Origin: Mediterranea sp. (in: CFB group bacteria)
Lineage (GTDB): Bacteria > Bacteroidota > Bacteroidia > Bacteroidales > Bacteroidaceae
Assembly: GCA_031287715.1 (NCBI GenBank)
Contig: JAITSN010000020.1
Location: forward strand, 1 to 64,000
Direction: 5' to 3'
DNA length: 64,000 nucleotides
The notes beneath the pieces are model-generated. The model had not been told where the DNA came from and ran no database searches. It was given only the letters and a program-made list of their open reading frames with translations. This document shows positions 44,770-51,605 of this stretch, piece by piece. Position 1 is the stretch's first letter; the number at the start of each line of letters is the position of its first letter. Both the position numbers and the translations under genes were made by a program.

Positions 44770-45075
44770 TGTCTCAACCCAGTTAACGACACTTAGACGG
44801 CGTATTTGCTCCGTCAATTGAATTTACGGCGCTTAGACGGCGTATTTATCCCGTCAACAAAGTTGATGGCACTTATATTTTGTATTTATCCCGTCAACAG
44901 AGTTGATGACTTTTATATTTTGTATTTGTTCCGTCAACAGAGTTGATGACTTTTATATTTTGTATTTGTGCCGTCAACAGAGTTGATAGCGCTTATATTT
45001 TGTATTTGTCCCGTCAACAGAGTTGATGGCGCTTATACAATAATATTTGTTCCGTCAGATCAACTTACGGGGCTT
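44770..45075. repeat. Tandem array, ~8 units of 40 bp (ccgtcaacagagttgatggcgcttatattttgtatttgt)
   Basis: ccgtcaa at 44811, 44851, 44891, 44931, 44971, 45011; variant units at ~44771 and 45052; hairpin TCAACagaGTTGA in most units. Confidence 0.95.
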
Positions 45076-45201: not shown

Positions 45202-45231
45202 TTTGCAGATTAAAAATAATATTTACCTTTG
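45202..45231 (+). promoter_or_regulatory. Bacteroidetes-type promoter of the leu operon
   Basis: TTTG (45202-45205), 18 bp, TAccTTTG (45224-45231). Confidence 0.7.
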
Positions 45232-45265: not shown

Positions 45266-45346
45266 ATGGATGTTTTTATAGGTATTCAGTTTTGCGATAT
45301 GATCCTCCTACCGGTAATGCCGGCCGGAGGTGAGTATCGCATATAG
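45266..45346 (+). CDS. Leader peptide of the leu operon (26 aa): MDVFIGIQFCDMILLPVMPAGGEYRI
   Basis: ATG...TAG between promoter and terminator; Ile-Leu-Leu-Pro-Val codons ATC CTC CTA CCG GTA lie in the 5' arm of a hairpin. Confidence 0.75.
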   Translation: MDVFIGIQFCDMILLPVMPAGGEYRI

Positions 45347-45412
45347 CTTTAAGTATAAAGACGTGCAGGATAATGAAGGCCTTTCTCACTTCCAAGTGTG
45401 AAAGGTTTTTTT
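45294..45412 (+). promoter_or_regulatory. Transcription attenuator: hairpin 1:2, alternative antiterminator 2:3, terminator 3:4 plus U-tract
   Basis: 1:2 = TGCGATA..CCTCC..CCGG / CCGG..GGAGG..TATCGCA; 2:3 = GGAGGTGAG (45326-45334) with CTCACTTCC (45385-45393); 3:4 = CCTTTCtCACTTccAAGTGtGAAAGGTTTTTTT (45380-45412). Confidence 0.8.
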
Positions 45413-45453: not shown

Positions 45454-46950
45454 ATGAGTGACAGATTATTTGTTTTCGATACAACATTGCGCGACGGCGA
45501 ACAGGTGCCAGGCTGCCAATTGAACACAGTAGAGAAGATCCAGGTGGCAAAAGCGCTGGAAGCGCTGGGAGTAGACGTGATCGAGGCTGGTTTTCCCGTG
45601 TCCAGCCCGGGAGATTTCAATTCGGTGATCGAAATATCGAAAGCGGTGACGTGGCCGACGATTTGCGCCCTGACCCGCGCCGTGCAGAAAGACATCGAGG
45701 TGGCGGCCGAAGCGCTGCGGTATGCAAAACGCAAGCGGATCCACACGGGCATCGGTACGTCCGACTCCCACATCAAATATAAGTTCAATTCAAACCGCGA
45801 AGAGATCATCGAACGCGCGGTTGCCGCGGTGAAGTATGCGCGCCGGTTTGTGGACGATGTGGAGTTTTATGCAGAGGATGCAGGGCGTACGGACAACGAA
45901 TACCTGGCAAGGGTGATCGAAGCCGTGATCGGGGCGGGAGCCACCGTTGTGAATATTCCCGATACGACGGGCTATTGCCTGCCGGACGAATATGGCGCGA
46001 AGATCCGGTACTTGGTCGAGCATGTGGGCAATATTGATAAGGCGGTCATCTCTACCCATTGTCATAATGATTTGGGCATGGCGACGGCAAATACGATGAG
46101 TGGCGTGCTGAACGGCGCCCGCCAAGTGGAAGTCACGATCAACGGCATCGGCGAGCGCGCCGGAAACACGGCCCTGGAAGAAGTTGCCATGATCTTGAAA
46201 AGCCACCACGAGATACAAATCGAAACCAACATCAACACACAGAAGATCTATCCGGTGAGCCGCATGGTCTCAAGCCTGATGAACATGCCGGTACAGCCGA
46301 ACAAAGCGATTGTGGGGCGCAATGCTTTCGCACATTCTTCGGGCATCCATCAAGACGGGGTGCTGAAGAATATGCAAACGTATGAGATCATCAACCCGCG
46401 CGACGTGGGCATCGACGACAGCTCGATTGTGCTGACGGCCCGCAGCGGCCGCGCGGCGTTGAAGCACCGCCTTTCCGTTCTGGGCGTGGAGCCATCCATA
46501 GAGAAGCTGGACGAGATCTACGAGCAGTTCCTGCGGCTGGCCGACCGCAAGAAAGACATCAACGATGATGATATTTTGGTGCTGGCAGGAGCCAACCGCA
46601 GCCAGAACCGCAGGGTTAAGATGGAATACCTGCAAGTGACCAGCGGCGTGGGCGTGCGCTCGGTAGCCAGCCTGGGACTGAATATTGCAGGCGAAAAGTT
46701 TGAAGCCGCCGCCGGTGGAAACGGGCCGGTGGATGCCGCGATCAAGGCGCTGAAAAAGATCATCGACCGCCAAATGACCCTGAAAGAGTTTACCATCCAG
46801 GCCATCAGCAAAGGCAGCGACGACGTGGGCAAGGTACACATGCAAGTGGAATATAACGACCAGATGTATTATGGCTTCGGAGCGAATACGGATATTATCG
46901 CCGCCTCGGTGGAAGCCTACATTGATTGTATAAACAAGTTCGTGAAGTGA
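45454..46950 (+). CDS. leuA: 2-isopropylmalate synthase
   Basis: [21 protein letters not shown] plus LeuA allosteric dimerization domain. Confidence 0.96.
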
Positions 46951-46980
46951 AAGAAAAAATAAACAAAACATTGACTCTTA

Positions 46981-48407
46981 TGACTGAAAAAAATAAGAAT
47001 GGGCAGAATGAACCTCAAACGCTGTTTGATAAAATATGGAACGCCCATATAGTGGCTAAAGTGGAAGACGGACCCACGCAATTGTATATCGACAGGCTTT
47101 ACTGTCATGAAGTAACCACCCCGCAGGCTTTCGCAGGGCTGCGCCGGCGGGGCATCCGATGCCTCCGCCCGGAAAAAATCTATTGCATGCCCGACCATAA
47201 TACGCCGACGCACAACCAGGACAAACCGATCGAAGACCCCATATCCAAAACACAGGTGGATACCCTGGCCCAAAATGCGGCAGACTTCGGCCTGAACCAT
47301 TTCGGGATGATGCACCCCAAGAATGGAATCATCCATGTGGTTGGCCCGGAAAGAGGATTGACCCTGCCGGGGATGACCATTGTGTGCGGCGACTCCCACA
47401 CTTCGACCCACGGAGCAATGGGAGCGGTGGCCTTTGGCATCGGCACCAGCGAGGTGGAGATGGTGATGGCTTCGCAATGTGTTCTCCAGGCCAAGCCGAA
47501 AACCATGCGGATTGCCGTTGAAGGCAAGCCGGGCCGGGGAGTCACAGCCAAAGACATGGCACTTTATATCATAGCCCGGATGACGACCGGCGGCGCCACC
47601 GGATACTTTGTGGAATACGCAGGAGAGGCCGTACGCAACTTATCTATGGAAGGACGCCTGACCCTTTGCAACCTGAGCATCGAGATGGGCGCGCGTGGCG
47701 GAATGATCGCCCCCGATGAGGTGACGGCAGATTACATCAAAGGCCGCGAGTATGCTCCGGCCGGTGCGGACTGGGATAAAGCCGTGGCGTATTGGAAAAC
47801 ATTGAAGACAGACGAAGGCGCGTCGTTCGATGAAGACATCGTCCTACAGGCCAAAGATATTGAGCCGATGATTACCTATGGAACAAACCCGGGCATGGGC
47901 ATGGGGATCACCGGCCGTATCCCCGCAATGGAAAGCGTGCCCGAAACCGGCCGCATCTCCTACGCCAAGTCGTTGGAATATATGGGATTCAAAGCCGGCG
48001 AGTCGTTGATAGGAAAGAAGGTCGACTACGTATTCCTGGGTTCTTGCACCAACGGGCGCATCGAAGACTTCCGCGACTTTGCCGCTTTGGTGAAAGGCAA
48101 AAAGAAAGCGGATGGCCTTGTGGCCTGGCTCGTTCCGGGGTCGTGGATGGTAGACGCCCAAATAAAAGAAGAAGGGCTGGATAAGATTTTGGCGGAAGCC
48201 GGCTTTGAACTTCGCCAGCCGGGCTGCTCGGCTTGTCTGGCTATGAACGACGACAAAATACCTGCGGGGAAATATGCCGTGTCTACCTCAAACAGAAACT
48301 TTGAAGGCAGGCAAGGGCCGGGCGCGCGCACGTTGCTGGCCAGTCCGCCGGTAGCCGCCGCCGCCGCCGTAACAGGAGTTATAACCGACCCGAGAACATT
48401 AAAATAA
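46981..48407 (+). CDS. leuC: 3-isopropylmalate dehydratase large subunit
   Basis: Aconitase-family motifs [27 protein letters not shown]; start [20 protein letters not shown]. Confidence 0.96.
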
Positions 48408-48415
48408 GAATCATC

Positions 48416-49009
48416 ATGAAAGAGAAATTCAACATACTGACATCCACTTGCGTGCCGCTCCCATTGGAGAACATAGATACCGACCAGATCATCCCTGCAC
48501 GCTTCCTGAAAGCTACGACAAAAGAAGGCTTCGGCGACAACCTGTTTCGCGACTGGCGCTACGACAAGCAAGGAAACAAGGTCGGATCCTTCGTTTTGAA
48601 CAATCCGGTTTACGGCGGAAAGATACTTGTTGGCGGCAAGAACTTCGGTTCGGGATCAAGCCGCGAGCACGCCGCCTGGGCCATAGCCGGCCACGGCTTC
48701 CGCGTGGTGGTATCGAGCTTCTTTGCCGATATATTCCGCAACAACGCCCTGAACAACTTTGTGCTTCCGGTGATGGTTAGCGACGCGTTCCTGTCGGAAC
48801 TGTTCGAAACCATCAACAAAAACCCCAAAGCCGAAGTAGAGGTAAACCTCCCCCTACAAACCATAACAAACAGATCAACAGCCGGGAGCGAACGGTTTGA
48901 AATCAACGCCTACAAAAAGCATTGCTTAGAAAACGGGCTGGACGACATCGACTTCCTGCTGACCAACAAAGACAAGATAGAGGCATGGGAAGAAAAAGCG
49001 TTAAAATAG
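48416..49009 (+). CDS. leuD: 3-isopropylmalate dehydratase small subunit
   Basis: NIDTDQIIPARFL; GKNFGSGSSREHAAWA. Confidence 0.96.
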   Translation: MKEKFNILTSTCVPLPLENIDTDQIIPARFLKATTKEGFGDNLFRDWRYDKQGNKVGSFVLNNPVYGGKILVGGKNFGSGSSREHAAWAIAGHGFRVVVSSFFADIFRNNALNNFVLPVMVSDAFLSELFETINKNPKAEVEVNLPLQTITNRSTAGSERFEINAYKKHCLENGLDDIDFLLTNKDKIEAWEEKALK

Positions 49010-50517
49010 AACTCATGGACACAACACTCCGCGACGGCGAGCAAACCAGCGGAGTGTCTTTCGTTCCACACGAAAAACTGATGATAGCACGTCTGCTTCT
49101 GGAAGAACTGAAAGTAGACCGCATCGAAGTTGCCTCGGCGCGGGTTTCTGACGGCGAATTTGATGCCGTAAAGATGATTTGCGACTGGGCCGCCCGCAGA
49201 AACATCCTGCAACGGGTGGAGGTCTTGGGATTTATTGACGGGCGGACTTCATTGGAATGGATCCAGCAAGCAGGCTGCCGTGTGATCAACCTGCTGTGCA
49301 AAGGATCATTGAAGCATTGCACCTGCCAGCTGAGAAAGACACCGGACGAACATACGGCAGGCATCATCGACGTTGTTCGCTATGCCGACGAAATGGACAT
49401 TGACGTAAATGTCTACCTGGAAGACTGGAGCAACGGAATGAAACATTCCCCCGAATATGTGTTCCAGCTGATGGACGCACTCAAAGACACGGCCGTCAAA
49501 CGGTTTATGCTGCCCGATACCCTGGGAGTGCTCAATCCGCTGGAAGTAATAGAATATATGCGCAAGATGATCAAGCGCTATCCCGATAAACACTTCGATT
49601 TCCATGCACACAACGACTATGACCTGGCAGTGAGCAACACACTTGCAGCCGTACTGAGCGGCGCCAGAGGGCTGCACACCACAATCAACGGGCTGGGCGA
49701 GCGGGCCGGCAACGCACCGCTGGCAAGCGTGCAAGCCATCCTGAAAGACCACTTCAACGCGGTGACGAGTATCGACGAAAGCTGCTTGAACGATGTGAGC
49801 CGGGTGGTTGAATCCTACTCCGGTGTGATCATCCCGGCCAATAAACCGATCGTAGGAGAAAGCGTCTTCACACAAGTTGCCGGCATACATGCCGATGGAG
49901 ACAATAAAAGCAACCTGTACTACAACGACCTGCTACCGGAACGCTTTGGACGCATACGCGAATATGCGCTTGGAAAAACATCGGGAAAGGCAAACATACG
50001 CAAGAACTTGGAAAGCCTCGGCCTTGAACTGGACGAAGAATCCATGAGCCGGGTAACCGAACGCATCATCGAGCTGGGAGACAAAAAAGAACTCGTAACA
50101 AAAGAAGATCTGCCCTACATCATCTCCGACGTCCTCAAGAGCGAAACAATGGGCTGTAAAGTTAGGCTGAAAAGCTACTTTGTAACCCTGGCGCACCGGT
50201 TGCGCCCGATGGCAACACTGAGCATAGAGATCGACGGCAAACTGTATGAAGAAAGCTCGTCCGGCGACGGACAATACGATGCCTTTGTCCGTGCCTTGCG
50301 GAAAGTGTACAAAGTAACGCTGAACCGCAAATTCCCCATGCTGATCAATTATGTGGTCAATATCCCGCCAGGAGGAAGGACGGATGCTTTTGTGCAGACG
50401 GTCATCACCTGGAGCTACAAAGACAAAGTCTTCCGTACGCGCGGGCTGGATGCCGACCAAACAGGAGCAGCCATAAAAGCCACCATTAAAATGCTCAACA
50501 TAATAGAAGAATATTAA
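48985..50517 (+). CDS. Second alpha-isopropylmalate synthase/citramalate synthase-type enzyme
   Basis: [45 protein letters not shown] plus LeuA C-terminal domain; start overlaps the leuD 3' end. Confidence 0.88.
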
Positions 50518-50534
50518 ATAATTCAAGAATAACG

Positions 50535-51605
50535 ATGAAATTGAATATTGCTGTCCTGCCGGGCGACGGAATCGGTCCCGAAATAGTCAACGTAGCACTG
50601 GATGTTACGGTTGCAGTGTGTGAGAAATTCGGCCACGGGTTGAACTACGCCCACGGCATTTGCGGCGCTGCGGCGATCGACCGGGTAGGCAATCCCTATC
50701 CGGAAGAAACACATGAACTGTGTATGAAAAGCGACGCCGTGCTGTTTGGCGCAGTGGGCGACCCGAAGTTCGACAACGACCCGCTGGCCAAAGTACGTCC
50801 CGAACAAGGCTTGCTGGCCATGCGCAAACGTCTGGGACTGTATGCAAACATCCGTCCGGTAACCACGTTCGAATCCCTGCTTCATAAATCGCCGCTGCGT
50901 GCCGACCTGGTAAGAGGCGCAGACTTTATGTGCATCCGCGAGCTGACCGGGGGCATGTACTTCGGCCGCCCGCAAGGCCGTTCGGAAGATGGAAATACGG
51001 CTTACGATACGTGTGTGTACAGTCGCGAAGAAGTAGAACGCATCGTTACGCTGGCTTATGAATATGCCATGAAGCGCCGGAAAAAAGTCACAATCGTAGA
51101 TAAAGCCAACGTGTTGGCAACCTCCCGCTTGTGGCGCGAAGTAGCCAAAGGAATCGCCCCGAAGTACCCCGAAGTAGAAACCGAATACATGTTTGTAGAC
51201 AATGCGGCCATGCGGCTGATTCAATGGCCGGCTTCGTTTGACGTCATGGTTACCGAAAATATGTTCGGCGACATCTTGACCGACGAAGCCTCGGTCATTA
51301 CCGGCTCCATGGGATTGTTGCCATCCGCTTCCATCGGAACCCATACTTCCGTATTCGAACCGATTCACGGCTCATGGCCGCAGGCGGCTGGGCAAGACAT
51401 AGCCAACCCGCTGGCCACGGTATTGTCGGCTGCGATGATGTTCGATTACGCATTCGGTTTGAAAGCCGAAGCCGGCCTGATCCGCAAGGCTGTAGACGCT
51501 TCAATGGCGGCCAATATACGTACGCGGGACATTCAAATAGAGGGTGAGAAATCTTACTCTACCTCCGAATTGGGGAAATGGATCGTTGATTATATAAAAG
51601 CATAA
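50535..51605 (+). CDS. leuB: 3-isopropylmalate dehydrogenase
   Basis: [43 protein letters not shown]. Confidence 0.97.

Follow-up and report, generated by a model that had tools for sequence, protein, structure and literature searches.

In the enterobacteria leuA is preceded by leuL (Rfam Leu_leader, RF00512), a leader in which a short ORF containing rare Leu codons (CUA) in tandem goes together with mutually exclusive antiterminator and terminator structures. In 2010 leader-peptide systems were stated to be known only in the Proteobacteria and Actinobacteria, and cases from the Firmicutes were added in PMC2965389. Passages of a report on the ilv-leu operon of Staphylococcus aureus describe a Leu-rich attenuator peptide which acts together with CodY (PMC5794164). 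Nearer to the bacteria considered here, main-text passages on Flavobacterium psychrophilum speak of strong clues for leader peptide attenuation before amino-acid operons (PMC9723704), and passages on Bacteroides thetaiotaomicron describe sORFs in long 5' UTRs, some of which were termed reminiscent of attenuation-mediating leader peptides (PMC7366714). The original prediction knew of no specific description in this genus; our search of the open-access Bacteroides and Bacteroidetes literature on leader peptides and attenuation found none for this leuA leader, priority being uncertain. A comparative analysis of attenuation, reportedly by Lopatovskaya et al. in 2010 (Mol Biol 44:128), could hold a prior prediction.

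Here we analyze the leader of a leu operon of the Bacteroidales. We are confident that it represents a classical translation-coupled (ribosome-stalling) transcription attenuator, which would sense charged Leu-tRNA and probably Ile-tRNA too.

Anatomy of the leader and the leu operon

The window, that is, the whole stretch of 64,000 nucleotides analyzed, belongs to contig 71 of a draft genome (83.6% complete) and contains an intact leu operon which, after the leader, has the order leuA-leuC-leuD-cimA-leuB (Table 1). The cimA-like ORF is listed from a TTG; its real start is probably near position 49000, overlapping the end of leuD.

Table 1. Features of the leu leader and of the genes downstream of it in the window
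Feature	Position	Strand	Remarks
Predicted Bacteroides-type promoter	45202..45231	+	TTTG 45202-45205, 18-nt spacer, TAccTTTG 45224-45231
Leader peptide ORF MDVFIGIQFCDMILLPVMPAGGEYRI	45266..45346	+	26 codons; coordinates include the stop codon; from sequence; homologous ORFs in relatives
Putative control codons ATC CTC CTA (Ile-Leu-Leu)	45302..45310	+	CTC CTA = 45305-45310
Segment 1, CCTCC	45304..45308	+	5' arm of hairpin 1:2; fold -16.2 kcal/mol
Segment 2, GGAGGTGAG	45326..45334	+	3' arm of 1:2 (bases 1-5) or antiterminator 5' arm
Intrinsic terminator	45376..45412	+	stem 45376-45389 / 45396-45409, one T-T mismatch, T run 45406-45412
Segment 3, CTCACTTCC	45385..45393	+	antiterminator 3' arm; part of terminator 5' arm and loop
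Segment 4, GTGTGAAAGG	45396-45405	+	within terminator
leuA, 2-isopropylmalate synthase (regulated gene)	45454..46950	+	NCBIfam NF002086 and TIGR00973, above cut-off
leuC	46926..48407	+	TIGR00170 above cut-off; ORF listed from TTG, likely start further in
leuD	48416..49009	+	TIGR00171 above cut-off
cimA/leuA2-like, (R)-citramalate synthase family	48922..50517	+	best match NF042433, 638 bits, below cut-off 950
leuB, 3-isopropylmalate dehydrogenase	50535..51605	+	TIGR00169 above cut-off

Upstream of leuA the original prediction had placed a 26-codon ORF followed by a terminator with a seven-T run, the codons CTC CTA overlapping the CCTCC arm of a first hairpin, and a pairing of segments 2 and 3 over 9 bp with one G-U; all of these are present in the sequence where they had been placed. 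The last of them is the 2:3 antiterminator helix, and since segment 3 is common to it and to the terminator the two structures are mutually exclusive. The inner helix of hairpin 1:2 is formed by CCGG/CCGG (45311-45314 / 45320-45323).

The predicted promoter ends 34 nt before the leader ORF. Of 44 leaders, 38 have its TAnnTTTG element 5' of their ATG, as against 10% in shuffled sequence. From this we infer a transcription start about 30 nt 5' of the leader ORF; the sequence does not point to a start 3' of 45266, the predicted promoter being upstream of the ORF. A short way 5' of the promoter lies a 40-bp tandem array (44842-45037; 4.9 copies, 91% matches), each unit of which carries a GTCAAC...GTTGAT palindrome. 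The genome has a related array on its contig 51 (8946-9331).

A generic scan for sigma-70 promoters and terminators returned three promoter-like and three terminator-like sites and missed the real leader terminator, the probable reasons being its mismatch and a stem that runs into the T run. When the window sequence was tested against chance, hairpin 1:2 (-16.2 kcal/mol) gave a z of -2.9, the terminator (-14.8 kcal/mol) -4.2, and the entire leader, whose best fold adds a predicted longer stem enclosing hairpin 1:2, -5.6. The 2:3 pairing was matched by about 4% of shuffles (p=0.04), and the peptide, with Ile, Leu or Val at 8 of its 25 residues, is not significant by itself (p=0.18 against the window genes). 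Taken by itself, then, the window sequence makes a moderate case, in which the attenuator is plausible only; that it is more than chance follows from its conservation in relatives and not from this single sequence.

Conservation among the Bacteroidales

A single scan of genome contigs with LeuA yielded 80 leuA loci, many of which share a common 5' layout of promoter, Ile/Leu-rich ORF, GGAAGTGAG, and terminator CCTTTCTCACTTCC...GTGTGAAAGG. A covariance model (R1) was built from 34 leuA leaders with the terminator as the sole structure supplied; its seeds came from a script requiring an Ile/Leu/Val-rich ORF and a terminator, and were then trimmed on the quality of the 2:3 pairing. At E values up to 1e-5 R1 matches 49 of these loci, in one case (L078) some 400 nt further upstream; about 30 of the 80, including most of the Muribaculaceae loci seen, are without the element.

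Genome-wide matches, which were not selected by the ORF and terminator script or by 2:3 quality, were found in 128 of 394 genomes of the order and in 107 of 121 genomes of the same genus, figures which include ilvD and other leaders and not leuA alone; among the good genomes of the genus the proportion is 68 of 71. Only 16 of 398 genomes of a phylum sample are matched, as expected if R1 is tuned to leuA of the Bacteroidales. In one genome of the genus there are two copies of the leader, one in front of leuA and the other in front of leuC (L149, L150). Lentisphaerae leuA genes that are close relatives of the Bacteroidales ones (L072 and L074) are preceded by different Ile/Leu-rich leader ORFs and terminators.

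Rfam gave no relevant match to the window at gathering score, Leu_leader and T-box included, nor to eight canonical relatives at E values up to 1; a T-box riboswitch was rejected on these grounds.

Covariation of the helices

Alignment A4 comprises 78 R1 matches, some 28 of its rows coming from the order genomes and a search of the genome itself. Within it the antiterminator 2:3 is paired in 94.5% of cells, and seven of its nine pairs have changed on both sides; double-changed cells number 23 versus 3.4 in shuffles (0/500), where shuffling does not remove relatedness. Slid controls, which keep the relatedness, were 10 to 78% paired, far below the true antiterminator register. As the antiterminator was not given to R1, this covariation has not been fitted by the model, although the seeds had been trimmed on their 2:3 pairing. 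The terminator 3:4 is paired in 96.9% of cells and all 11 of its pairs covary (65 double-changed cells versus 11.8 in shuffles, 0/500). Examples of compensation between segments 2 and 3 include GGTAGTAAGA/TCTTGCTACC in L052, GGAGGTAAGT/GCTTGCCTCC in L077 and, in the same genus, GGATAGTGAG/CTCACTATCC in L152, with further cases in L041, L051 and L079.

Hairpin 1:2 recurs at the same position, occupying segment 2, in 70 of the 78 relatives. It sequesters segment 2 in 90%, versus 69% when the upstream bases are shuffled (mean z -1.47). The first register proposed for it in Bacteroides-type leaders was discarded, its covariation being no better than that of a one-base slide, and 1:2 therefore rests on fold statistics. 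Bacteroides-type and Prevotella-type leaders differ in register, and because of this shift between lineages the covariation of 1:2 is mixed and weaker than that of 2:3 and 3:4. Hairpin 1:2 is thus supported as a recurrent local hairpin, less firmly than the other two helices.

The predicted 1:2 / 2:3 / 3:4 logic is borne out by compensatory changes in both of the mutually exclusive helices (2:3 and 3:4). In the leaders before leuA the ORF, the 2:3 pairing and the terminator proved to be conserved, and hairpin 1:2, with its shifting register, recurs with weaker covariation. We consider the comparison with relatives decisive for the predicted attenuator.

Proposed mechanism

Based upon sequence and folding we infer the start of transcription, translation of the ORF, stalling, termination and amino-acid response of the leu leader as follows. 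RNA polymerase would start about 30 nt 5' of the leader ORF, followed by a ribosome translating the leader. When Leu-tRNA (and probably Ile-tRNA) is amply charged the ribosome would reach the stop codon and cover segment 2, whereupon terminator 3:4 would form and transcription end at about 45412. When charged Leu-tRNA is scarce it would stall at ATC-CTC-CTA, breaking hairpin 1:2 and making segment 2 available for pairing with segment 3, so that no terminator would form and leuACD-cimA-leuB would be transcribed. Without translation hairpin 1:2 would form first and favour termination.

Folding was modelled with a ribosome footprint of about 12 nt past the P-site codon, an assumption taken from E. 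coli. A ribosome placed at CTC leaves free RNA that, until segment 4 has been made, folds with the 2:3 helix (-18.8 kcal/mol), and with the ribosome at the stop codon the RNA beyond folds as the terminator. When the ribosome is stalled and segment 4 is present the minimum free energy fold is again the terminator. The switch must therefore be kinetic, as in known attenuators; antitermination requires that 2:3 be formed first and persist.

Leader peptides and control codons

Peptide statistics were drawn from 44 leuA leaders. Twelve automatic picks were excluded overall, seven as spurious (L013, L022, L025, L042, L043, L063, L078) and five as unrelated or doubtful (L028, L030, L032, L072, L074). 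Ile, Leu and Val make up 41.6% of the leaders versus 22.6% of the window genes, the former figure being inflated by sampling partly on these residues. The preference for CTA was not a sampling criterion: this codon, which at 3.7% is the least used for Leu in the window genes, accounts for 58 of 189 Leu codons (31%) in the leaders. Leu is found at alignment columns 33-35 in 57 of 77 sequences and at columns 36-38 in 69 of 78. Bacteroides leaders have the conserved core Ile-Ile-Ile-Leu-Leu (ILL..GIIILL) and those of Prevotella Ile-Ile-Ile-Arg-Leu (IIIIRL); the ancestral control codons are Ile-Ile-Ile-Leu-Leu. Leu had been predicted as the amino acid sensed; its codons are indeed conserved and CTA is enriched, and this reading is to be widened, since the ancestral control codons include the Ile run and Ile is probably sensed as well.

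The window peptide has drifted from this core. Its aligned Ile-Ile-Leu-Leu has become Ile-Leu-Leu-Pro, with ATT-CTA-CTG of the relatives replaced by CTC-CTA-CCG, and the first ILL block has become IQF; one Leu pair is kept, as is the CTA at 45308-45310, which stands in the column of the alignment for which CTA is the codon most often found in relatives. The window leader is thus a divergent copy and its peptide alone is not distinctive.

One might suppose that it is the decaying relic of a functional family member, which may terminate constitutively or respond weakly. Its R1 score of 78 bits is lower than that of nearly all copies of the same genus (mostly 90-115 bits), and both the first Leu-Leu and the run of Ile are gone. 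Yet all three helices are intact, as is the operon downstream, hairpin 1:2 is at -16.2 kcal/mol stronger than in the other copies listed (-6 to -13 kcal/mol), CTA is kept in its conserved column, and other divergent copies of the genus (L152, L153) retain the complementarity of segments 2 and 3. We consider such decay unlikely, though deserving of some weight.

Leaders of other operons

Analogous leaders occur before other operons of the same genome, the genes being identified by NCBIfam (ilvD, pheA, trpB, hisG). The Ile/Val/Leu-rich MINNTSINLSLSIVSLVVILPSRA and a terminator precede ilvD (L083:1471-1545, contig C118; R1 45.9 bits), and comparable leaders (..HIIRLVVV..) are present in other genomes of the genus. 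Before pheA lie MNLFAYTFSFYYYFYFSRK, which has a run of Phe and Tyr, and a terminator (L084:1484-1543, C38), with a weak R1 match (27 bits, E 0.0145). Read by eye, the putative leader MKTNIKTSYWWRYLTQAIMS with tandem Trp codons and a terminator precede trpB (L172, about 1330-1462, C111). For hisG the candidate is MLLTNAHHYISNE with tandem His codons, followed by a terminator (L173, minus strand, C106) and picked by eye from four short ORFs.

That the short ORFs of a single genome match the amino acids of their respective operons lends strong support to sensing by translation. It bears directly on the supposition that the hairpins are a binding site for some protein or small molecule, the terminator controlling leuA without a leader peptide and the ORF being incidental. 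Such a scheme would sit well with the unremarkable composition of the window peptide (p=0.18) and with hairpins that are strong on their own, but a protein-binding site would not predict the match between ORFs and operons, nor is it in keeping with an ORF which is kept across families, rich in Ile and Leu, and supplied with rare CTA codons; we hold it to be very improbable. Less credible still is that the ORF promotes leuA translation through reinitiating ribosomes, the terminator belonging to something else: leader genes near start codons have been proposed to act in this manner in Bacteroidetes (PMC4833913), but the distances there peak at 11-14 bp, whereas here the leader stop codon is 107 nt 5' of leuA with the terminator in between, and the segment pairing is conserved.

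Ribosome-stalling attenuation being thus preferred for leu, its possible extent in the phylum may be considered. Bacteroidota rarely use Shine-Dalgarno initiation. In spite of this we lean toward the view that they run amino-acid operons through phylum-wide leader-peptide attenuators (leu, ilv, phe, trp, and probably his). Should these function, Bacteroidota must couple transcription tightly to translation where operons start, and the leaders would offer a readout of this coupling in a phylum with unusual translation initiation. Ile-rich leaders such as MKNLIYIIIVIIIIIIR were also seen elsewhere in the phylum before genes for branched-chain amino acids (L174-L184); the genes that follow were read from their first residues as putative ilvD, ilvE, ilvA and acetolactate synthase small subunit genes.

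Comparison with known systems

The analysis provides a structural model for the way in which leucine synthesis may be regulated in the Bacteroidales, bacteria dominant in the gut. R1 finds the element, which has no Rfam family, in most Bacteroides genomes. The mechanism is a classical, textbook one; the family is conserved across the Bacteroidales and absent from Rfam, and conserved attenuators in the Bacteroidota widen the range of the mechanism.

The sORF example in the B. thetaiotaomicron passages is BT_4401, a hypothetical protein, and these passages name no leu, ilv, phe or trp attenuator (PMC7366714). The F. psychrophilum candidates belong to the same phylum, their main-text passages being without details of a family or of leuA (PMC9723704). 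The S. aureus ilv-leu leader, as the passages describe it, is alike in placing a Leu-rich leader peptide over branched-chain amino acid genes, and differs in phylum, in operon and in the involvement of CodY. Closest is enterobacterial leuL, with which the Bacteroidales leader shares the short ORF, the tandem Leu codons including rare CUA, the exclusive helices and the position before leuA. The sequences and the peptide are different, however, and the control run of the Bacteroidales leader is rich in Ile; the two leaders are presumably of independent origin.
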